A stretch of 39,993 nt of DNA from Gammaproteobacteria bacterium (GTDB lineage Bacteria > Pseudomonadota > Gammaproteobacteria > Thiohalobacterales > Thiohalobacteraceae): NCBI GenBank assembly GCA_016218375.1, contig JACREG010000056.1, positions 1-39,993 of the forward strand. The letters run 5' to 3'. Below the pieces are notes generated by a model that saw nothing but the letters and a program-made list of their open reading frames with translations, was not told the origin of the DNA and made no database searches. Of this stretch, positions 9,562-27,149 are shown piece after piece. Position numbers and translations under genes: made by a program. The stretch's first letter is position 1. Every line of letters begins with the position of its first letter.

Positions 9562-11400
9562 ATGGCAGTATCGCAGCGTTATCTCCATCTGGTTCTGATC
9601 GGGCTGGTGCAGGGGCTGGTCCTGTACGGTCTGTACCGCGGCTACGAACACAATTTGGTGCCGCCCGAGGCGGCGACGGCGTTCAATGCGCTGCTGATGC
9701 CGGCACTGTTCCTGCCGCTGGTCGTGTTCTGGACACAGGACCTCCTGACAGGGAAACTGCGTGGTCTTTTCTGTCTGCTGATTGCAGTGATCGCAGCGGC
9801 ATTCGGCATTTATCACGCCACGACCGCCTTCCCGGTGCTGAGCGGGAACCGCATCGTCCTGGTCGGGTTCCCGGTGATGTTCGCCTTTGCCGTAGCGGCA
9901 TTCATCAGTGTGCCGCTGATGAGCGGCCGCGCGCAGGATGCCGTGACGCTGCCGGTACTGCGCTACTGGGACTATGCGCGGCTGTTCGACGATGCCTGGC
10001 GCAATGCCGTACTCAGCCTGCAGGCGCTGGTGCTGACCTGTCTGTTCTGGGGCATTCTCGAGATCGGTGCGCAACTGTTCGCGCTGATCGGCGTGGAATG
10101 GATACGCGACGAGCTGCTGCACAAATCCTGGTTCGCCATTCCGTTGACCACCACCAGCTTTGCCTTTGGCTTCCGCGCCGGCCTGCGCCGCGCGGACTTC
10201 ACGCGCGCCCTGCGCAATCATTGGCTGACCATTACGGCTTGGCTGCTTGTGGTGGTGAGCGTGATCGGCAGCGGCTTCATCCTGACCGCACTCGGCGGTG
10301 TCGGTACGCTGTTCGAGCGCGGCGTGTCGGCGGTCTTCCTGCTGTGGTTCGTGGCCTTCTGGGTCAAGTTCTACAATTGTGCGTTCCAGACCGGCGCTTC
10401 GGTCAGCACGATCTTCGGTCGCGCGCTGCGTGCGTTCCTGGGTTTCGCCACAGTGCCGATGCTGGTGATGGCCGGCTTCGCGGCCTATGCAATGTATCTG
10501 CGCATCGCGCAACATGGCCTGACGCCTGACCGCATATGGGGTCTCCTGGTCGTGGCGGCCGCGCTTATCTATGGCGGTGGCTATGCGCTCGGCCTGCGTC
10601 CGCGTCTGGGCGCGCCTTGGTTGAAGACGTTGCCGGCGACCAATGTGCTCGCGGCGCTGGCGATCCTGCTGAGTATCCTGCTGCTGCTCTCGCCGGTACT
10701 CGATCCGCGACGTCTGGCGGTCGACGACCAGCTCGCGCGGCTCGCCGCAGGAAAGATCGCGCCGGAGGCCTTCGATGCGCAGATGTTCGTCGACGCGGGG
10801 CGTTACGGTTACGATGTTCTGCAGCGCCACGCCGCCGAGCGCGATGCACAGGGCGAGGTTACAGCGCTGGCTGGCCGCGCGCAGGAGGCTTTGCAGGCTG
10901 CGCGCAATCAAAGCGTGTACAGCGAGGCGGAAAGGCAAGTGAGTCTGGCGGATGATTTTGCGGCGCGGCTGGAGGTCTTCCCGCACGGTACCGAGGTTCC
11001 CGCAGGCTTGATCGAGGCGATCACACGCGAAGTCGATAGCTGGGAAAAATGGCAACAGGACAAAAGCTGCTTTGCCGAGCACGCGTTGATCCGCTGCCCG
11101 TTGCTGCGGGTGGATCTCAACGGGGACGGCGCGGAAGAGGCGGTGTTATGGGAAGATCGCGATCTCAATAGCGGGCGCGTATATCAAATGCGGCAGGGAA
11201 AGTGGCTCGCGGTGGGCGAGATCCGTGGTGAGAGTTATGCGGATCGGGCCGAAGTGTGGAGTGCCTTGCGGAAAGGCGATATCAGCGCGCGCCCAAGCGC
11301 CTGGCAAGATCTGCATATCGGCAAGCAACGGCTGGATGTGAACGAATGGGAAACAAGCGAGTCGCAATCAGACGAGGCATGCACGGAAACGGCCAAGTGA
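9562..11400 (+). CDS. DUF4153-type multi-pass membrane protein
   Basis: 612 aa, many TM segments in the first ~350 aa, soluble C-terminal region; overall resembles DUF4153 proteins. Confidence 0.75.
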   Translation: MAVSQRYLHLVLIGLVQGLVLYGLYRGYEHNLVPPEAATAFNALLMPALFLPLVVFWTQDLLTGKLRGLFCLLIAVIAAAFGIYHATTAFPVLSGNRIVLVGFPVMFAFAVAAFISVPLMSGRAQDAVTLPVLRYWDYARLFDDAWRNAVLSLQALVLTCLFWGILEIGAQLFALIGVEWIRDELLHKSWFAIPLTTTSFAFGFRAGLRRADFTRALRNHWLTITAWLLVVVSVIGSGFILTALGGVGTLFERGVSAVFLLWFVAFWVKFYNCAFQTGASVSTIFGRALRAFLGFATVPMLVMAGFAAYAMYLRIAQHGLTPDRIWGLLVVAAALIYGGGYALGLRPRLGAPWLKTLPATNVLAALAILLSILLLLSPVLDPRRLAVDDQLARLAAGKIAPEAFDAQMFVDAGRYGYDVLQRHAAERDAQGEVTALAGRAQEALQAARNQSVYSEAERQVSLADDFAARLEVFPHGTEVPAGLIEAITREVDSWEKWQQDKSCFAEHALIRCPLLRVDLNGDGAEEAVLWEDRDLNSGRVYQMRQGKWLAVGEIRGESYADRAEVWSALRKGDISARPSAWQDLHIGKQRLDVNEWETSESQSDEACTETAK

Positions 11401-11440
11401 TGTGAGCAGTCGGGCGGTTTGTGGCGCGGGGTTTTAGAGC

Positions 11441-11474
11441 GGTCCGTGGCGCGTTCGCTTCTGCGCCACGGACC
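11441..11474. terminator. Possible bidirectional terminator or structured element between convergent genes
   Basis: Perfect 12-bp inverted repeat GGTCCGTGGCGC/GCGCCACGGACC, 10-nt loop; no clear U-tract. Confidence 0.4.
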
Positions 11475-11479
11475 TGCGG

Positions 11480-11716
11480 TCACAGTTTCTTATGCGCGCC
11501 GTCGCAAAAGGGTTTCTTGGCGCTGTGCTTGCAACCGCACAGCCACACCTTGGTTTTTTCCGCGAGTTCGAATTTCTGTGGCGCGAAGTCGCTGCCCTTG
11601 TGCGAACCGTCGCAGAACGGCTGAGTCTTGGATTTGCCGCAGGCGCACCACCAATAAGTGCCGGCCTCCAGTTCCAGAACATACGGGGCCTTCTGTGCGA
11701 TATCCGGTTCTGCCAT
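11480..11716 (-). CDS. CDGSH iron-sulfur domain protein with two CDGSH motifs
   Basis: CACGKSKTQPFCDGSHKG and CGCKHSAKKPFCDGAHKK motifs; start at MAEPDIA. Confidence 0.92.
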   Translation of the reverse strand: MAEPDIAQKAPYVLELEAGTYWWCACGKSKTQPFCDGSHKGSDFAPQKFELAEKTKVWLCGCKHSAKKPFCDGAHKKL

Positions 11717-16909: not shown

Positions 16910-18385
16910 GTGGCCAAACGTCGCGCAGCCGAGACACCGAACCGCGAACACGTCGCGCTGCGCTGGCGGCGTACCAAAATCGTCGCCACGCTCGGACCGG
17001 CCTCGGCGGTGTCCGAGGTGCTCGAACGGCTGGTGACGGCGGGTGTGGACGTGATCCGCCTCAACATGTCGCACGGCGATCACGCGAGTCATCGCGACAA
17101 CGTGCGGCGCATCCGCGCCAGTGCCGAACGCAACGGCAAGCACATCGCGATCCTGATGGACTTGTGCGGGCCTAAAATCCGCGTCGGACATTTCGCCGAC
17201 GGCGGCATCGAGCTGCGCGAGGACGCGACGGTCACCGTGACCACCGCCGCCGTTACCGGGCGCGACGGATTGATTCCCTCGCAGTACAAACATCTCGCCC
17301 GCGACGTGACCAAGGGCGAACGCATCCTGCTCGACGACGGCAAGTTGGAACTGCGTGTGCTGGCGGTGTCCGGCAACGAAGTGCGTTGTCGTGTCGTACA
17401 CGGCGGACGGCTCACCGACAACAAGGGCATGAACCTGCCCGACTCGAAACTGTCGACGCCGGCACTCACCGATAAAGACAAGCGCGACGCGCAACTGGCC
17501 GTCGAACTCGGTGTGGATTTTCTTGCGCTAAGCTTCGTGCGCGCGGCGGCGGATGTCACACAGTTACAGCGCTTTCTCGCGCGGCACAAGGCCGACATCC
17601 CGATCATCAGCAAAATCGAACGCCCCGAGGCGGTCGAGGCCATCGATGAAATTCTCGATGTGTCCTACGGCATCATGGTGGCGCGCGGCGATCTCGGCAT
17701 CGAACTGCCCGCCGAGCGCGTGCCGCTGATTCAACGCGATCTGATCGAGCGCGCGCGCCAGCATGCCGTGCCGGTGATCGTCGCCACGCAAATGCTGGAA
17801 TCCATGCTCACCTCCGCGCGACCCACGCGTGCCGAGGTCGGCGACGTCGCCGGTGCCGCCTTGACCTCCGCCGACGCGGTGATGCTCTCGGCGGAAACCG
17901 CCAGCGGAAAATTTCCGGTCGAAGCGGTGCTGACCATGGACCGCATCCTGCGCGAGATCGAACGCCATCAATGGCACAACGGCCGCTTCGTCGCCGATGC
18001 CGCCGTAGTCGGTAACGAAAAACACTTCAGCGACCGCGAGGCCGTCGCGCACGCCGCCGTGGACCTCGCGCACGATCTCAAACTCGCCGCGCTGGTAATC
18101 CCGACCATGAGCGGCACTACCGCGCGCATCATGGCCGCGCACCGCGTCACCGCGCCGCTGATCGGCGTGTGCGCCCGCGACGCCATCAGCCGTCGCCTCG
18201 CATTGCATTGGGGTGTCGTCCCCGTGCAAGTGCAGGAATCGGACACCCACGACTGGCGCCACCTCTGCGAACTCGTCGCCCCGCGCGTCGGCCTGAACGG
18301 CAAAGGCCATCAGTTGCTGGTGCTCGCCGGCTTCAGCGACGAGCCCGGACACAACGAACCGGTGATGAAGTTGTTGCGCTTGTGA
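16910..18385 (+). CDS. pyk: Pyruvate kinase
   Basis: RRTKIVATLGPAS; IRLNMSHGDH; ILMDLCGPKIRVG; GIMVARGDLGIELPAERVPLIQRDLI; SADAVMLSAETASGKFPVEAV. GTG start. Confidence 0.95.
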   Translation: MAKRRAAETPNREHVALRWRRTKIVATLGPASAVSEVLERLVTAGVDVIRLNMSHGDHASHRDNVRRIRASAERNGKHIAILMDLCGPKIRVGHFADGGIELREDATVTVTTAAVTGRDGLIPSQYKHLARDVTKGERILLDDGKLELRVLAVSGNEVRCRVVHGGRLTDNKGMNLPDSKLSTPALTDKDKRDAQLAVELGVDFLALSFVRAAADVTQLQRFLARHKADIPIISKIERPEAVEAIDEILDVSYGIMVARGDLGIELPAERVPLIQRDLIERARQHAVPVIVATQMLESMLTSARPTRAEVGDVAGAALTSADAVMLSAETASGKFPVEAVLTMDRILREIERHQWHNGRFVADAAVVGNEKHFSDREAVAHAAVDLAHDLKLAALVIPTMSGTTARIMAAHRVTAPLIGVCARDAISRRLALHWGVVPVQVQESDTHDWRHLCELVAPRVGLNGKGHQLLVLAGFSDEPGHNEPVMKLLRL

Positions 18386-18390
18386 GGGTT

Positions 18391-18412
18391 GCCGATATGC
18401 GATCGGCTTTTC
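18391..18412 (+). terminator. Intrinsic terminator after pyk
   Basis: GCCGAT-loop-ATCGGC followed by TTTTCTT. Confidence 0.65.
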
Positions 18413-18413
18413 T

Positions 18414-19202
18414 TCACCCCAGCGACGGTTCGATCAGATCGCGATAGGCACGCCAGGTGGCGTGACCGAGCAGCGGGAAGAAAAACACCAAGCCGACGCA
18501 ATAGGTCAGATAGCCGACCGCGATCAGTGCCACGATGATGGCCGCCCACAGCAACATGACCTGCGGATTTTCCCGCACCGCCCAGAGACTGGTCATCAGT
18601 GCCGTGGCGACATTCACCTTGCGGTCGAGCAGCATCGGCAGCGACACCACGCTCAGCGCGAATACCACCGCGGCCAACACCGCACCGAACACGGTATAGG
18701 CCACCACGAAGGCCATATGCCCGCCGGAGGTCATGACCTCACCGACCAGACTTTCCACGGCGAGGGTGTTGTCGGTCAGGAACAGCGCAACCAGAATCGC
18801 CGACATGCGTTCCCAAGCGATCAGCAAAATTATCAACAACGCGGCATACAAACCGATGGACGAGGCATTCCCGCGCCACGCTATCAGACTGTGGCGAATG
18901 CTCGGCCGCATGCCGGCGTCGATCTGTCGGCTGAGGTCATAGAAGCCAATCGCCAAGAACGGTGCCAGCAACAAAAATCCCGTGGTCATCGCCATTGCCA
19001 AATGCACCTGCGACCACGCGTATCCGGCCAACAGAGAGCCCAAGCCGGCAAACACCACGCCGTAACCGAGACTGATGGGCCAACTGCGTCGCAAGTCGGT
19101 CGCGCCGTCTCTAAGCCAACACAACGGACTGTCGATCGGCACGATGCGAATTCCCGGGTATTCCATATGCCGCGAATGCGGTCTGAAAATAGTTCTTTCC
19201 AT
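18414..19202 (-). CDS. DUF2189 domain-containing integral membrane protein
   Basis: Multi-TM; DLRRSWPISLGYGVVFAGLGSLL...LLAPFLAIGFYDLSRQIDAG; NPQVMLLWAAIIVALIAVGY. Confidence 0.8.
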   Translation of the reverse strand: MERTIFRPHSRHMEYPGIRIVPIDSPLCWLRDGATDLRRSWPISLGYGVVFAGLGSLLAGYAWSQVHLAMAMTTGFLLLAPFLAIGFYDLSRQIDAGMRPSIRHSLIAWRGNASSIGLYAALLIILLIAWERMSAILVALFLTDNTLAVESLVGEVMTSGGHMAFVVAYTVFGAVLAAVVFALSVVSLPMLLDRKVNVATALMTSLWAVRENPQVMLLWAAIIVALIAVGYLTYCVGLVFFFPLLGHATWRAYRDLIEPSLG

Positions 19203-19384
19203 GATGGCAGCCTCCTCTGGTACGAACCGGACAGAGGAAGTGTAGTGCGCCCGCGAGGACGTGTGAGGCGAGTATGGGGTCGATTCAAACACACTTCATG
19301 GTGAAAATAGGCGGCATAACGGCGCGTGTTAACCGAACTCACCGATTCGTGGTTGAGTCGCCGTCATTCGGTTTGAGATACCTG

Positions 19385-19771
19385 CTACTCGACCGAAGCG
19401 CCCTTTTCTTGCAGGAGGGCGCGCAGTACCGAGCGATGGCAGTGGTCCTCATCCTCGCAGTAGCACCCAACGGAGAAGTTCGTCTGGCGCGATAGCGTGG
19501 CGAGCAGCTCAAGTGCGTGGCTGCTTTCCGGTGTTCCCATTTCAGCGCGGTACTTTTTCTTGAAGGATGTCCACTCCGCGTCCGTCTTGGCCTGTTGACC
19601 GAGCTTTATGGTCTCAACACTCGGTGCCAAGTTGGGGAACCATACGTCGTACCAATTATGAGAAGCGAACTCCGTTTTCGGAACACCGCGTGGGGGACGG
19701 CGCACAGTGCCGATGCGGACGCCTTCGTTCTTGGCTCTCGGAGTCCCGAGTCTGACGACACGAACGACCAT
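19385..19771 (-). CDS. DUF488 family protein; ORF sits like a terminal integron cassette
   Basis: MVVRVVRLGTPRAKNEGVRIGTVRRPPRGV...VGCYCEDEDHCHRSVLRALLQEKG; start lies 20 bp past attC site 1. Confidence 0.8.
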   Translation of the reverse strand: MVVRVVRLGTPRAKNEGVRIGTVRRPPRGVPKTEFASHNWYDVWFPNLAPSVETIKLGQQAKTDAEWTSFKKKYRAEMGTPESSHALELLATLSRQTNFSVGCYCEDEDHCHRSVLRALLQEKGASVE

Positions 19772-19790
19772 GCGACCTCCGGGCTATGAT

Positions 19791-19857
19791 GCATAACGGC
19801 CCGCTTCACGGGCGGCGGCGCGTTAGCGACGCCGTCCCGTGGAAGCGGTGGTTATGT
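19791..19857 (-). repeat. Integron attC site 1 (67 bp)
   Basis: GCATAAC-GGCCCGCTTCACGGGCGGC...GCCGTCCCGTGGAAGCGGTG-GTTATGT; long imperfect palindrome at the 3' end of ORF 19862-20368. Confidence 0.85.
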
Positions 19858-19861
19858 GTGT

Positions 19862-20368
19862 TTATTTCTTCTTGATGCATTCGCAGCCTTGTTGTGGACA
19901 GCTTTCTTTGAATTGAAAGTAGGCCATGCCACCATCAGTGACTGTTTCGGCGTATACGATTTTTTCTTTTTCAACATCATAAATGATGTCAGTGCCTACA
20001 ATCTTTCCCCACCACGGCCGCATAAGCAGAAGTTTTTCGTTAATCCATTTTGTTTCAGATAACCCGAAAAGGTCAGTGAATTTAATTTGAATAAGATGAT
20101 CCTTCTCGGCATAGATGGTTATCTTTGCTTCAGGCCGCCCCGGACCCTCAAACACAAAGAAATAGCCCTTATTGGGTGAATACACACCCGGCTTCGGTTT
20201 CTCTGCCTTTACTGACGTAATAGCAACATTCTTTTGCCAACGGTCGGATTTGTTCTCGCCGTGAAAAAAACGGGGCTCGGACCAGCAGTCGGGCGCAAGC
20301 CCAGGCCAGCCTTCTGCGTAGACTGCGACAGACAGAGTTGCTGCGAGCAAACTAAAGACAATTCTCAT
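19862..20368 (-). CDS. Hypothetical exported cassette protein
   Basis: MRIVFSLLAATLSVAVYAEGWPG signal peptide; Cys-rich tail CPQQGCECIKKK; lies between attC sites 2 and 1. Confidence 0.7.
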   Translation of the reverse strand: MRIVFSLLAATLSVAVYAEGWPGLAPDCWSEPRFFHGENKSDRWQKNVAITSVKAEKPKPGVYSPNKGYFFVFEGPGRPEAKITIYAEKDHLIQIKFTDLFGLSETKWINEKLLLMRPWWGKIVGTDIIYDVEKEKIVYAETVTDGGMAYFQFKESCPQQGCECIKKK

Positions 20369-20379
20369 GGTGTGAACGC

Positions 20380-20457
20380 ACATAACGTTTGACTTAAGCG
20401 GACCGTGGAGGACGGCGAAGCCGGCCGGAACGGGTCCGCTTGAAGGAAGGGTTAGGC
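20380..20457 (-). repeat. Integron attC site 2 (78 bp)
   Basis: ACATAAC-GTTTGACTTAAGCGGACC...GGGTCCGCTTGAAGGAAGG-GTTAGGC. Confidence 0.9.
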
Positions 20458-20475
20458 AGCAACGCGATTGGCATG

Positions 20476-20904
20476 CTATTGACTCCTGACTGCAGGCGAA
20501 CAGTAAAACTGCCTGCTACCTAGCTTAATGGCGTGGGATAGATCGCATTTGATCTCAAGCTTGTTGGGAGCGTAGCCGACACCCGCCTCCGAGTAGCCTG
20601 TGTACTCTTTTCCATCAACGGTAATCTGAACTGAGTAGGCATAAAGAGGATCGCCAATGAGTGTGGCCGTGAACAGAAGCTTTCGGATGGCCTCTGTAGC
20701 AAAGCGGCCATCTCGGCCTGTTGCGGCGGAGTGAACTGCCTCTGCGAACTGGCCCGATACGCGCACCTCTGCTCTTTCGACTGGCACACCTTCTTGCGTG
20801 ACCACTCCGGAAACAGCCGGGGCGTAGTAGCGATAGTTCGGGAACGGAACGCAACCACTTAGCGAAGCCGAGACAAGCAGTAGAAGTGGGAATCGCATTG
20901 CCAT
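20476..20904 (-). CDS. Hypothetical cassette lipoprotein
   Basis: MAMRFPLLLLVSASLSGCVPF lipobox LSGC; SGVVTQEGVPVERAEVRV resembles a carboxypeptidase-regulatory-like beta domain. Confidence 0.7.
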   Translation of the reverse strand: MAMRFPLLLLVSASLSGCVPFPNYRYYAPAVSGVVTQEGVPVERAEVRVSGQFAEAVHSAATGRDGRFATEAIRKLLFTATLIGDPLYAYSVQITVDGKEYTGYSEAGVGYAPNKLEIKCDLSHAIKLGSRQFYCSPAVRSQ

Positions 20905-20914
20905 GATTCTTGCT

Positions 20915-20995
20915 GCCTAACGTTCAAGGTAAGGGGCTGGCTGGAGGCGGGCAAAGCCCGCTGTAAGCCAGTCCCGCTTGACCGTAGTGTTAGGG
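20915..20995 (-). repeat. Integron attC site 3 (81 bp)
   Basis: GCCTAAC-GTTCAAGGTAAGGGGCTGGCT...AAGCCAGTCCCGCTTGACCGTAGT-GTTAGGG. Confidence 0.9.
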
Positions 20996-21277
20996 CTATA
21001 GGGTGCCATGCTCGATTTCTTGCAGATAGATGAACTCTGGCGCTTTTACCCCCGCTTTTTTTCTGATTTCTACCAACTCGGGTGACTCGAAAAAACGGCG
21101 CGCATTGTCCAGTGACGACCAAGCTGAAAAATGGACTATGTTGTTTGCGTCATTGTCGTAGCGCAGCAATTGATAGCTGATTTCACCGGCAGATTTTCTG
21201 ATAGCGGACGCTTGGTCGAAAACTGACTTCCATGCGGGGTAGGATTCGACCTCATGAATGATTAAGACGTGTTGCAT
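20996..21277 (-). CDS. Small cassette protein, probable ABM-like ferredoxin-fold (antibiotic biosynthesis monooxygenase-type)
   Basis: MQHVLIIHEVESYPAWKSVFDQASAIRKSAGEISYQLLRYDNDANNIVHFSAWSSLDNARRFFESPELVEIRKKAGV; stop codon abuts attC3. Confidence 0.7.
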   Translation of the reverse strand: MQHVLIIHEVESYPAWKSVFDQASAIRKSAGEISYQLLRYDNDANNIVHFSAWSSLDNARRFFESPELVEIRKKAGVKAPEFIYLQEIEHGTL

Positions 21278-21298
21278 ATTTCCCCTTTGGTTGAATGG

Positions 21299-21376
21299 CC
21301 CTAACGTGGAGCTAAGGGGCGCGCCGTAGGCGCGTCCCAGCGACCGAAGGGAGCGACCTTGAGCGAATGGTTAGGC
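21299..21376 (-). repeat. Integron attC site 4 (78 bp)
   Basis: CCCTAAC-GTGGAGCTAAGGGGCGCGCC...GGGAGCGACCTTGAGCGAATG-GTTAGGC. Confidence 0.85.
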
Positions 21377-21919
21377 CGCACGCAGTCCTCTAATAAGAGG
21401 GCTACGGTAATCTGGGTCTTTCTCATTCCACCACACAAACCCATTTGCAAGATCAACATTAAAGAAGCTCTCGTAGTAATCATCTTCATTGAACGGTTCC
21501 TGATCCCTTCCAAAGAGCTTTAGCTTTACCGTGTGACACGCAAGATCCGTATCTTGCTGATGTAACGCGATGGCAGTAAATGTCTCCTCAGGGATCATCC
21601 TGAGTCCCACATCGCCTATTTCGTAAAGTTTGGCAATGACACTGATCAGGCGATCGCTGATCGCACCAAGCGATCGGAAACTAACGCCATACGGGTACAC
21701 ATGTTTCTTAATGAGGTTCATATCGCCGTCAAATCCTGGCTCCACTTGCTTAACTAGCTTAACCGCAACACCGACACGCTCTTCCTCATGAGAAGCAAGA
21801 ATGTTGAAGTAATAGTATTCGCGGTCCGACTTTAGGCCATCAATTTTGAAGACGCAGTCAACGAATCCATCTTCGCTATATTGGGTCAGAACAGGTAAAT
21901 TATTCTTGTCGACTAGCAC
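21371..21919 (-). CDS. Hypothetical cassette protein
   Basis: 182 aa MLVDKNNLPVLTQYSEDGFVDCVFKIDGLKSDREYYYFNILASHEEERVGVAVKLVKQ...; its stop region overlaps the end of attC4. Confidence 0.7.
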   Translation of the reverse strand: MLVDKNNLPVLTQYSEDGFVDCVFKIDGLKSDREYYYFNILASHEEERVGVAVKLVKQVEPGFDGDMNLIKKHVYPYGVSFRSLGAISDRLISVIAKLYEIGDVGLRMIPEETFTAIALHQQDTDLACHTVKLKLFGRDQEPFNEDDYYESFFNVDLANGFVWWNEKDPDYRSPLIRGLRAA

Positions 21920-21935
21920 GATGTGCTCCCCTGCG

Positions 21936-22005
21936 GCCTAACGTAGAAGTCACCGGCGCTGCGCGGCTTTATCGCGCAGCGTCCGTGTGGACTGCCGGGT
22001 TGGGC
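21936..22005 (-). repeat. Integron attC site 5 (70 bp)
   Basis: GCCTAAC-GTAGAAGTCACCGGCGCTGCGCGGC...GCGCAGCGTCCGTGTGGACTGCCGG-GTTGGGC. Confidence 0.85.
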
Positions 22006-22016
22006 ACCAGCGGCCG

Positions 22017-22520
22017 CTAAATTTTGAAAGCATCGGCGTTTGCCACCTTTCCACGAAGCATTTTCTTCCACAAATCAGCACGCCGTTTCTCGGGAAGCTT
22101 TTTCCATGGAATGAGTACGATGCCAGCCTCGCGATAATTTCCTTTGGCGCGCATGGCGGCATAGTTCTCTGCGCGGGTAACTATGTGAACGTGCTCGAAC
22201 TCGACAAGTGTTTTAATGAATGCATCGGGAGCACTCAGTCGTTCGGTACGATGTTTCTCGACAAGCGCGGTGAGCGTAGTTTGAATGCGTTTGAAGTGCT
22301 CAAGCATTAGCGGGCCATCGCTTTCTGCCGCTGCGGCCTCCGAAACCTTGCCGGTAAAGCGCCGAAGTTTGCGCTTCACGGCCTCGGCCATGATGTGCGT
22401 GTACCAAGCGCGCGCACGCCCAGGAGTGACATTGGGGCGCTTAGAAAGCCACATTACTTCCTCGTAGATCGACTTCAACGCCGCGTGCAGTTGAGGATCA
22501 AGGTCAGGTGGCGAACTCAT
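22017..22520 (-). CDS. Hypothetical cassette protein, basic and helical
   Basis: MSSPPDLDPQLHAALKSIYEEVMWLSKRPNVTPGRARAWYTHIMAEAVKRKLRRFTGKVSEAAAAESD... Confidence 0.65.
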   Translation of the reverse strand: MSSPPDLDPQLHAALKSIYEEVMWLSKRPNVTPGRARAWYTHIMAEAVKRKLRRFTGKVSEAAAAESDGPLMLEHFKRIQTTLTALVEKHRTERLSAPDAFIKTLVEFEHVHIVTRAENYAAMRAKGNYREAGIVLIPWKKLPEKRRADLWKKMLRGKVANADAFKI

Positions 22521-22526
22521 TCTGGT

Positions 22527-22596
22527 GCCCAACATGTGAGTAGACCGCCGCAGCGGTATTTAATTACGGCCGCCGCGGTCTAAGTCTGGGTTAATG
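22527..22596 (-). repeat. Candidate integron attC site 6 (70 bp, less canonical right core)
   Basis: GCCCAAC-ATGTGAGTAGACCGCCGC...GCGGTCTAAGTCTGG-GTTAATG; TAGACCGC arms equidistant from both cores. Confidence 0.65.
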
Positions 22597-22800
22597 AAAA
22601 ATGCTTTCCAGGTCTTCTGCTTATCCGACCTGAGAAATCCGTATTAGACCGCAGCAGCAGTCTAATGCCATAAATCCCTGCATATGCCGCTGGAGCGGCT
22701 TTTGTCGCCCACCGGAGCGGTCTAAATCAGCGTTGCTGCAAATTTTGGTTGTCTCCATGCTTTGGCAATACCGGAAAAAGAGATCGGGTCCGCATTAAGT

Positions 22801-23109
22801 TCAGTCCATAATCCTTCCTGAAATGTCTTCCAGAAGTCGTTTACCGTGAATAACTGCAACGACAAGAATCCGCGTGGCTTCGATTCGATATACTAGGCGG
22901 TAACTGTATATGAACCGCTCTCTGATTTTTTCGTCCCCGATCTCCGGCACAATGCGCCCGATCAACGGGAAGCCAGGGATGCTCCGGGCTGTCGTCAGAA
23001 TTTCAGTGACGACTGCTATAGCGTAGAACTCGGAATCCCGGGCGATATAGTCTGCGATCGATACCAAGTCTTCTGTAGCTTCAGGCGACCACTCTATTTC
23101 GATATCCAC
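22801..23109 (-). CDS. Type II toxin, RelE/ParE superfamily
   Basis: VDIEIEWSPEATEDLVSIADYIARDSEFYAIAVVTEILTTARSIPGFPLIGRIVPEIGDEKIRERFIYSYRLVYRIEATRILVVAVIHGKRLL; GTG start 23109 overlaps the antitoxin end. Confidence 0.88.
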   Translation of the reverse strand: MDIEIEWSPEATEDLVSIADYIARDSEFYAIAVVTEILTTARSIPGFPLIGRIVPEIGDEKIRERFIYSYRLVYRIEATRILVVAVIHGKRLLEDISGRIMD

Positions 23110-23282
23110 TTGGAAAGCTTCCTTTCTACTTCGTCCTGACTCAGCGTACCTTCCTGGCTGGCGCGCTCGATTCCTTTGTTGATCTTCTCGACAACATACA
23201 GGTGGTACTGGATGTCTTCCAGGGAGCAATCATCTGGAAGTTTGTCCAGAAGTGCTTTCACGTCGTCTTTCGCGGTGCTCAT
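23094..23282 (-). CDS. Cognate antitoxin of the RelE/ParE-type module
   Basis: 62 aa MSTAKDDVKALLDKLPDDCSLEDIQYHLYVVEKINKGIERASQEGTLSQDEVERKLSKWISK; translationally overlapping with the toxin. Confidence 0.85.
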   Translation of the reverse strand: MSTAKDDVKALLDKLPDDCSLEDIQYHLYVVEKINKGIERASQEGTLSQDEVERKLSKWISK

Positions 23283-23451
23283 TACTTGTGGCCCTGGGCA
23301 GATATCGATGGTGGCTGTGTTGGTCGGGATGTTGAAAATCTGGACTAGATCGCCTGGCTTGGCAAGTGTTTTTCGAAGGGGTTTGTATTCGGGGGGCGGG
23401 GGAGACTCGCCTAGTCAAGGTCGCACCAGTTCCTCTTGATAAGGCTTTTTC

Positions 23452-23470
23452 AAAGCCCGACCGGGCTTTT
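23452..23470 (-). terminator. Probable intrinsic terminator downstream of the YkgJ-family gene
   Basis: AAAGCCC-GACC-GGGCTTT stem flanked by A/T tracts. Confidence 0.5.
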
Positions 23471-23533
23471 AAAGTATTAGCGGTATTTTTAAAAAGCGCC
23501 GACTGTCGTGAGTCTCGGAACGCATCGGCAAGC

Positions 23534-23788
23534 CTACGGACGCGTCGCAATCTCCAGCTCTGCTATCCACGCCAACGCATACTCGCGATCCTCGCCGCAC
23601 ATTTCCAGATCGGGTTTGAGTCCGGCGCAACACTTCGGCCTCTCCGGTTGATCGAAGATCGCGCAGCGCAGGTCGTCGGTGAGTTGTACGCAGCGCACGC
23701 CGGCGGGTTTGCCGTTGGGCATGCCGGGGATGGGTGTGGTGATGGACAAGGCGATGCAGCAGGCACCGCAGTGGGGGCGGCAGTTCAT
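23534..23788 (-). CDS. YkgJ family cysteine cluster protein
   Basis: MNCRPHCGACCIALSITTPIPGMPNGKPAGVRCVQLTDDLRCAIFDQPERPKCC. Confidence 0.88.
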   Translation of the reverse strand: MNCRPHCGACCIALSITTPIPGMPNGKPAGVRCVQLTDDLRCAIFDQPERPKCCAGLKPDLEMCGEDREYALAWIAELEIATRP

Positions 23789-23795
23789 GGTGATA

Positions 23796-24173
23796 TCACG
23801 TACTCAGTTTGGCCAGGACTTCGCTATCGGAAAGTGCGTGCCCGACCCAGACGACGACTTTTCTCGCGCCTGCGCCGGCGGCCAGTTCGTGGAGTGCGCG
23901 TTCTTCAACTTCCGATAAACCGTCTTCGCACTTCTCCAGGGGATGAATGACTGCCACGGGGCTCGGCGCGAAGAGTTGTCCTGCGTAGAGTGACTTTATG
24001 GCCGCCTTGAGTGTCTCGTGCGCGGCGAGAAATTGTCCGACGAGAAGGCGCGATGTCGTGAAGGGTGTCGGCGAGACCGCGCTCAGGGACTTTCCGCTTT
24101 CAATGTGTTTGAGGTCGAACCGGTTGGGGTGGACTTTAATGTAGAGGGTGTTCTTGAATGGATTTCTAAACAT
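23796..24173 (-). CDS. Conserved hypothetical protein
   Basis: 126 aa MFRNPFKNTLYIKVHPNRFDLKHIESGKSLSAVSPTPFTTSRLLVGQFLAAHETLKAAIKSLYAGQLFAPSPVAVIHPLEKCEDGLSEVEERALHELAAGAGARKVVVWVG. Confidence 0.7.
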   Translation of the reverse strand: MFRNPFKNTLYIKVHPNRFDLKHIESGKSLSAVSPTPFTTSRLLVGQFLAAHETLKAAIKSLYAGQLFAPSPVAVIHPLEKCEDGLSEVEERALHELAAGAGARKVVVWVGHALSDSEVLAKLST

Positions 24174-24287
24174 GATCGTTTGCGAGCGGGTCTGGCGCAT
24201 CGGGCGCGGGGCATTGCGCCGTAGGATGTCAGGCCGAACCTTTCGGCGCAAGCGCCTCACCTTCAGGCCGCGCCTACAGATACGCAC

Positions 24288-24312
24288 GGGGACAGATTTG
24301 AAATCTGTCCCC
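24288..24312. repeat. Perfect palindrome GGGGACAGATTT-G-AAATCTGTCCCC
   Basis: 12-bp arms around a central G, intergenic. Confidence 0.9.
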
Positions 24313-24323
24313 TCGGCTGACTC

Positions 24324-24944
24324 TTAACCGCCGACGCGCAACAGAATGGCGTCGAGCTGGTTTTCCTTGAGACGCGCGCGCGCGGTGTTCAGTGCATTGA
24401 GATCGCTGAACGGGCCGACGCGGACGCGGTGCCAGGTCTCTTTGTTATTGATGGTGACGGTCTGGATGTCGGATTGCAGGCCGAGCAGGGCGAGTTTGGC
24501 TTTCAGTTGGTCGGCCTGTTGCCGGGTGCGGAACGAGCCGGCTTGCAATAAATAGGTGCCGGGCGCTTCGACTTGGGGAACGCCTTCGCGCGGTTGCCCG
24601 GTGATTTCCTGCTCCGGCACTGGTACTTCCATCTCGGGGAGGATGGTGTAGAAATCGAAGCGCGGTTTGGCCGGCGGGGGCAGCGCCTTCGCGGGCTCGG
24701 TTTTGCGTACCGCGCGCGCGTCTTGCTGCGCGGTCGGTACGTTCAGGGACTGGCTGGTCTGCGCCGGTGTCGCGGGTGTGCTCGCCGCGGTCGGTTGTGC
24801 GGCGGGACGCTGTTGCAGATAAAACAGGAAGGCGACGAACAGGCCGATGGCCAGTCCGGCGAGCAGCCACAGCCAACCGGGCGGGCTCTGCTGTTTGCGT
24901 CGGCGGCGGGGTGTGCTGGTTCTGTGTTTGTAATCGCGTGGCAT
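24324..24944 (-). CDS. SPOR domain-containing membrane protein
   Basis: Basic N-term, TM WLWLLAGLAIGLFVAFLFYL, Pro-rich linker, C-terminal YLLQAGSFRTRQQADQLKAKLALLGLQSDIQTV SPOR domain; adjacent to argS. Confidence 0.9.
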   Translation of the reverse strand: MPRDYKHRTSTPRRRRKQQSPPGWLWLLAGLAIGLFVAFLFYLQQRPAAQPTAASTPATPAQTSQSLNVPTAQQDARAVRKTEPAKALPPPAKPRFDFYTILPEMEVPVPEQEITGQPREGVPQVEAPGTYLLQAGSFRTRQQADQLKAKLALLGLQSDIQTVTINNKETWHRVRVGPFSDLNALNTARARLKENQLDAILLRVGG

Positions 24945-24987
24945 CGTTCAACTGCGGGGAACCGCTGCCGGTTCCGCCGGATCTCGT

Positions 24988-26760
24988 CTACATGCTGTCC
25001 GGCGCGGAAACGCCCAACAGGCCCAAGCCGTTGGCCAGAACCTGGCGGGTGGCCTGAATCAGATTCAAGCGCGCGTTGCGCAGCGCGCTGTCCTCGACCA
25101 GGAACTGATGGGCGTTGTAATAGGTGTGAAAATCGTTGGCCAGTTCGCGCAGGTAATGGGCGATCTGATGCGGTTCGTGATTGACGGCCGCGTTCTCGAT
25201 CACTTCCGGATAGCGCGACAGGCTGACCAGCAGGTCGATCTCGTGCGATTCGGTGAGGCGCTGCAAGTTCGCGGCGCCTTCGAGCGCGTTCCAGGCGATG
25301 CCTTTGTCGGCCATCTGCCGCATCACGCTCATCACGCGCGCGTGCGCGTACTGGATGTAATACACCGGATTGTCGGCCGACTGCGATTTGGCCAGATCGA
25401 GATCGAAGTCCAGATGCTGTTCGCATTTGCGCATTACATAGAAGAAGCGGCAGGCATCTTTGCCCACTTCCTGACGCAGTTCGCGCAGGGTGACGAATTC
25501 GCCGGAGCGCGTCGACATTTGCGCCTTCTCGCCGCCGCGATACAGGATCGCGAACTGCACCAGCAGCACGTCGAGCTTGGCCGGGTCGTCGCCGATGGCG
25601 GCCAGCGCGGCCTTCACACGCGGCACATAGCCGTGATGATCGGCGCCCCACACGTCGATGACGCGCGTATAGCCGCGTTCCATCTTGTTCATGTGATAGG
25701 CGATGTCGGAGGCGAAATAGGTGGTCTGACCGTTGTCGCGCACCACCACGCGGTCCTTCTCGTCGCCGTAGTCGGTGGAGCGGAACCACAACGCGCCGTC
25801 TTTTTCGTAGACGTGGCCGCTGGTCTTCAGGCGTTCAAGGGTGCGCGCAACGGTACCGTTATCGGTGAGCGAGCGTTCGGAGAACCACTCGGCGTATTCC
25901 ACGCCGAACTCGGACAAATCGTGGCGGATGTCGTCGAGGATGGTGTTGAGACCGAGATCGAACACTTCGCGGTAGCGTTCCGGGCCGAGCAGTTCGCGTG
26001 CGCGCGCGATCAGCGCGTCGATGTGCTGTTCCTTGTCGCCGCTGCCATTGGGGCCTTTGCCTTCGTCGGCGGGGATATCCTTGAAGACTTTGGCGGCACT
26101 GTGGCGCAATGCGCCGGCATGCGTGCGATGCAAGGTCGCGGCGATGTCCCAGACGTAATCGCCTTTGTAGCCGTTGCTCGGAAAGTCGAAGATCTCGCCG
26201 CACAGATCCAGATAACGCAAGTAGACGCTCGTGCCGAGGATGTCCATCTGCCGGCCAGCGTCGTTCACATAATATTCGCGATGCACGCGATAGCCGACCG
26301 CTTCCAATAAATCGGCGACGGCTGCGCCATACGCGGCGCCGCGACCGTGACCGACGTGCAGTGGGCCGGTCGGATTGGCGGATACGAATTCGACTTGGAT
26401 GGAGCGCTCGGCGCCGAGGTCGCTGCGACCGAATTGCGCGCCCCGTTCCAGCACGTCGCCGATCACGCTGTGATAGGCGGAGGGACTCAGATAAAAATTG
26501 ATGAAGCCTGGTCCGGCGATCTCGACCTTCGCGACCTGCGCGGAGGACGGCAGCGCGGCGACGATCTTCTCGGCGATGTCGCGCGGTTTGGCGCGCGCGG
26601 CCTTGGCCAGGGTCATCGCCACATTGCTGGCGAAGTCGCCGTGGGCGCGGTCGCGGGTACGCTCGATCTGGATGACGATGTCGATATCGTCCGGGAGACC
26701 GCCGCCCGCTTGCAGGCCGTGCACGGCATCGGTCAGGAGCTGTTCGAGGTGTCGCTTCAT
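24988..26760 (-). CDS. argS: Arginine--tRNA ligase
   Basis: [54 protein letters not shown]-term [38 protein letters not shown]. Confidence 0.97.
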
Positions 26761-26966: not shown

Positions 26967-27143
26967 GTAGCCCGATGGAGCGTCGTAGCCCGGATGGAGC
27001 GCAGCGTAATCCGGGGCATCGCCAGGCAGTCCCCGGATTCCGGCCCCGAAAAGCGTGGGGCCTGCATCCGGGCTACACCAGCCCCTCAAACAGATCGGTC
27101 ATCCAGGGCCGTAGCCCGGATGGAGCGCAGCGCAATCCGGGGA
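26967..27143. repeat. Cluster of GTAGCCCGGATGGAGCGCAGCG(T/C)AATCCGGGG repeats, direct and inverted
   Basis: Copies at 26967 (partial), 26985-27016, inverted 27030-27076, and 27111-27143. Confidence 0.88.
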
Positions 27144-27149
27144 ATCCCC

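Follow-up and report, generated by a model that had tools for sequence, protein, structure and literature searches.

A row of integron gene cassettes with a candidate attI and no adjacent integrase gene in an environmental gammaproteobacterium

The window analyzed here, a 39,993-bp stretch corresponding to contig C6 (positions 1-39993) of a draft MAG (2.79 Mb, 198 contigs, 86% complete), carries a genuine row of integron gene cassettes from an environmental gammaproteobacterium, in which the attI site is kept and the adjacent integrase gene (intI) is missing. The array is composed of attI and five cassettes and closes with a DUF488 gene that has no attC, and it is probably the remainder of a decayed sedentary chromosomal integron from which intI and its leader have disappeared. 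Two further genomes of the same genus were used for comparison, namely G002 and the sister genome G001, which is the closest relative compared, a groundwater Gammaproteobacteria MAG whose integron contig (JACRMO010000152.1) shares the attI motif.

Identification of attC sites

An attC site is defined by R'' (RYYYAAC) and R' (GTTRRRY) boxes, an L''/L' inner helix with an extrahelical base, and a hairpin formed by the bottom strand. A covariance model (R1) encoding the R''/R' and L''/L' helices plus the extrahelical base was built from 29 aligned attC sites of integrons in relatives, most of them picked by linked cassette ends on the array side of intI, and the sites of the window were excluded from training. 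Applied to the 40-kb window with filters off, R1 identified five sites, at 19791-19857 (52.4 bits), 20380-20457 (52.1 bits), 21936-22005 (43.5 bits), 20915-20995 (42.0 bits) and 21299-21376 (32.9 bits). All five matches are on the minus strand, the same sites score at most 12.3 bits on the opposite strand, and no other position in the window exceeds 11.2 bits. With 29 training sites R1 is a small model, and the E-values it gives (2e-9 to 3e-5) are rough; the case for attC rests jointly on bit scores, strand specificity and the cassette complementarity described below. The six palindromes adjoining minus-strand ORFs that the initial annotation had described were all located, and five of them scored above background; the sixth, at 22527-22596, gave no R1 match, even when 4.4 kb was searched alone at E up to 10.

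The defining features of attC are present in all five sites, including 21299-21376, which folds weakly. Folding as single-stranded DNA placed four of the five ahead of every one of 200 shuffled sequences, with z-scores of -6.47 (19791-19857), -4.43 (20380-20457), -4.22 (21936-22005) and -3.95 (20915-20995); the exception was 21299-21376 (z -1.81). The fold of 22527-22596 is unexceptional (z -1.96, 9 of 200 shuffles not beaten). A Rfam scan of 18000-24500 gave no match. In addition, a possible seventh attC at 19315-19385, 3' of the DUF488 gene, was ruled out, with R1 scores of at most 6.2 bits downstream of that gene and with the R'' box predicted from the gene start absent by eye.

Cassette structure and gene content

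A cassette is a circle before insertion, and base pairing is therefore expected between its start and the R'' of the attC that it carries. Such complementarity was found in all five cassettes, extending over 12, 11, 8, 12 and 8 nt in order from attI, and the observed pairing of starts with ends totals 51 nt, the best of 120 pairings (runner-up 44, mean 27.4). This supports the identity of the cassettes independently of the covariance model, and the two lines of evidence agree with the integron cassette array that had been proposed initially. Multi-copy repeats do occur in this genome, yet an explanation of the sites as chance palindromes or REP-like repeats has a negligible probability when set against strand-specific scores, 33-52 bits from an independently trained model, complementarity that holds cassette by cassette, and an attI stretch that is single-copy in the genome.

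The cassettes are 384-637 bp long, and the gaps between stop codon and attC range from -6 to +18 nt. Cassette 1 (21942-22532), beside attI, contains a listed minus-strand ORF of 172 aa (22017-22535) without a Pfam family above the cut-off. It probably starts at an internal ATG at 22520, because the upstream ATG falls in attI. Relatives of its protein are found on Pandoraea and Dyella plasmids (64% and 48% identity, respectively); no attC was detected near them, so a cassette-borne status of these plasmid relatives is not supported. Cassette 2 (21305-21941) contains a listed minus-strand ORF of 182 aa with a GTG start (21371-21919), the product of which matched no family in Pfam, NCBIfam, PHROGs or PADLOC and was absent from the other genomes among the 369 searched in the class. 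Cassette 3 (20921-21304) encodes a 93-aa protein resembling antibiotic biosynthesis monooxygenase (ABM; 20996-21277, minus strand), which scores 22.9 bits against PF03992, slightly under the cut-off of 23.1, and is 66-68% identical to plasmid proteins annotated as ABM.

Cassette 4 (20386-20920) encodes a 142-aa DUF6795 protein (20476-20904, minus strand; PF20598, 30.8 bits against a cut-off of 27.4) with a lipoprotein-like N-terminus. Cassette 5 (19797-20385) encodes a 173-aa protein (19862-20383, minus strand) without a family and with a signal-peptide-like N-terminus, for which no relatives were found in the plasmid or viral-contig collections. The terminal DUF488-N3a gene (19385-19771, minus strand; PF22751, 154.5 bits) starts directly after the last R' core. 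Pfam matches across the five cassettes therefore amount to one above the cut-off (DUF6795), one just under it (ABM) and none for the other three, and the cassette proteins are mostly uncharacterized. No convincing defense family was detected among them, the PADLOC matches being weak and partial, and single-sequence structure predictions for two cassette proteins (mean pLDDT 48.5 and 41.1) were too uncertain for use.

The sixth palindrome and attI

On the minus strand, window positions 22735-22531 are 81% identical over 205 bp to positions 11281-11485 of the integron locus in G001 (L089), a stretch that sits there between the start of intI (11138) and the first cassette. Identity is divided unevenly, with 61 of the final 64 bp identical (window 22531-22594, the most conserved part) and 106 of the preceding 141 bp. 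The same region (22531-22728) was recovered when the window's own genome was searched with the G001 integron contig. Homology extends precisely up to the G^TT crossover (ACATGTT; core at 22533-22531), after which G001 continues with AGAAGTC and the window with GGGCACC. What follows the shared G^TT is in each genome a first cassette of its own, and the one in G001 likewise has a match between its start and R''.

On the basis of its position and of homology in one related genome, 22527-22596 is assigned as the end of a putative attI region (22531-22735), not as an attC. The initial annotation had read all six palindromes as attC sites of a plain CALIN, and five of them stand as such; for the whole array this reading is very unlikely, for although all six palindromes end in GTT and abut ORFs, the sixth fails the attC model at E=10 and has its homolog beside intI in G001. 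The attI stretch occurs once in its own assembly, and a search of 11 genomes of the family found it elsewhere only in G001; a pattern search of the genome collection likewise matched only the G001 contig. It contains repeated TTAGACCGC motifs, and all three exact copies of this motif in the window are inside it. A search for a Pc promoter at attI found no sigma-70 consensus match in 22400-23600.

The missing integrase gene

The window encodes no IntI, as had been noted from its ORFs, and a search of the rest of the assembled genome also found none, the top TIGR02249 match being a Xer-type recombinase on contig C141 that scores 79 bits where the cut-off is 265. The genome's own tyrosine recombinases, on C141, C56 and C4, were rejected as IntI by model score. 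A tblastn search for intI remnants in 18000-26000, including the interval from attI to the flank, gave no significant match. The assembly from which intI is absent is 86% complete, and the gene may lie in an assembly gap.

The place expected for intI is occupied by a parD-parE-like toxin-antitoxin pair (22801-23282, minus strand; ORFs 22801-23229 and 23094-23282), followed by the native CxxCxxCC gene. The ParE ORF matches PF05016 with 61.8 bits, and the 62-aa ORF upstream of it, without a family match, is called an antitoxin by position. R1 detected no attC between this pair and attI, and the pair is not a cassette. Since the MAG is a draft, the attI-parDE junction may be an artefact of assembly.

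Decay is supported by the relatives, in which intI is widespread (23 of 56 genomes over the cut-off) and broken in both congeners. The intI of G001 (L089, 10158-11138) is full length but has one in-frame stop, and in G002 only residues 1-103 were found. The leader of the G001 gene contains a LexA-box-like motif (CTGN10CAG) at 11186, beyond the part that aligns with the window.

Alternatively, an active integron might exist elsewhere in the species, with its intI at the glyoxalase locus, as in G001, in a part missing from the assembly, and the present array as a second platform served in trans, a rather unlikely reading that is compatible with loss of intI at this locus. Contig C116, which is syntenic to the neighborhood of the G001 integron, stops some 1.1 kb before the intI position, at a repeat present in multiple copies, the assembly yielded no ortholog of the glyoxalase, and further attC sites are scattered on C3, C37, C146, C96 and C66, those on C96 and C66 near contig ends. 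Against this reading, attI is single-copy in the assembly, and the intI genes of both G001 and G002 are broken. Less likely still is that an orphan attI has been conserved under selection after the loss of intI and is served in trans from another locus, such that a cell would hold several cassette platforms.

Locus in related genomes and origin of the array

The gene order adc-pyk-x-CxxCxxCC-SPOR-argS is common to the window and G001, and the interval from pyk to CxxCxxCC measures 1.3 kb in G001 versus 5.2 kb here. The G001 interval contains other genes and none of the cassettes of the window, and the array was found in the window genome alone. Relatives had been proposed as a source of evidence for cassette-wise change; the array as a whole is indeed absent from the syntenic locus of G001, and the comparison bears on the array as a unit, since no other genome carries it. 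The different genes of G001 (L031, 7628-8912) in the same interval suggest that it may be an insertion hot spot. A DUF2189 membrane protein gene (18414-19292) lies between pyk and the array, and it may have arrived with an inserted block, since it was not found in G001 and its product is at most 43% identical to family relatives.

The integron of G001 is located at another chromosomal place, adjoining a glyoxalase-like gene, which argues against decay in place, and the array at pyk-argS may be a block arrival. A move of attI and cassettes to this site as a block, through another element or recombination, is accordingly a minority explanation, drawing on this difference in position, on the lack of a G001 counterpart for the whole of 18388-23543, including the DUF2189 gene and parDE, and on G002, where pyk was not found between adc and SPOR. 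Speaking against it, no mobilizing element was recognized in a non-exhaustive search for transposases, terminal repeats and target duplications.

We infer, under the preferred reading of a decayed integron, that intI formerly lay at this spot, as well as the order of events and the mechanism of recombination, which follows general knowledge of integrons. The cassettes would have been captured singly by an IntI of a type still found in a congener, each capture joining the folded bottom strand of an attC to the G^TT of attI. Since insertion takes place at this point, the 172-aa gene beside attI would be the latest arrival. Afterwards, the intI side would have disappeared up to a breakpoint some 205 bp from the crossover, and the former place of intI would now be taken by the parDE module. 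The cassettes would be fixed here unless an IntI acts on them in trans.

Relation to known integrons

CALINs, defined here as at least two attC sites without a neighboring integron integrase, have been proposed to be degraded integrons (PMC9024848). The present locus shares with them two or more attC sites with cassettes and no intI nearby, and it differs in that attI is kept. The label CALIN given in the initial annotation therefore holds operationally (five attC sites, no neighboring intI), but the retained attI would mark the proximal end of an integron and not a free-floating attC cluster. As for the components of a complete integron, intI is missing from the assembly, and an attI with insertion at G^TT is indicated by homology.

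Pseudogenes of intI are common (PMC2426708), and in Xanthomonas intI has been repeatedly inactivated, leaving arrays behind and more attC clusters elsewhere (PMC12444791). The present case likewise involves a gammaproteobacterial platform with intI lost or broken, remaining arrays and attC clusters elsewhere; it differs in lineage and in locus, the retained intI of Xanthomonas being consistently beside ilvD, and, unlike in Xanthomonas, the array here and the integron of G001 are at different places. The G001 integron shares a homologous attI, the same crossover point and attC sites of the same kind, whereas it has an intI with an in-frame stop, the LexA-box-like leader motif, other cassettes and a glyoxalase-like neighbor.

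The locus is thus probably another case of integron decay with loss of intI, of the ordinary kind, and its specific point is the retained attI. Sites of this type outside class 1 escape standard tools (PMC9024848), and the locus supplies a candidate attI for this environmental lineage of Gammaproteobacteria. An attI hidden in a supposed CALIN can be recognized by comparing first-cassette junctions across related genomes for homology that ends at G^TT, and this comparison separates integrons without intI from scattered attC clusters.

Other attC sites in the genome

A second cluster, on C3 (12323-14267; L081, 8324-10268), comprises three attC sites, in the surroundings of which there are two ORFs with weak HEPN-like matches and an ABM-like protein; an HI1420-type antidote with a Gp49-like partner adjoins the cluster. 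On C37 (17745-18651; L082, 9746-10652), two attC sites each lie directly 3' of an ORF (of 201 and 258 aa) that matches no Pfam family. The attC on C96 (L084, 5229-5291), beside an acetyltransferase-like ORF near the contig end, shares 83% identity across 64 bp with one of the attC sites in the G001 integron and may represent the distal end of an array that was not assembled. Separately, window positions 26983-27147 hold a short REP-like sequence with many genomic copies, and contig C116 ends in a repeat related to it.
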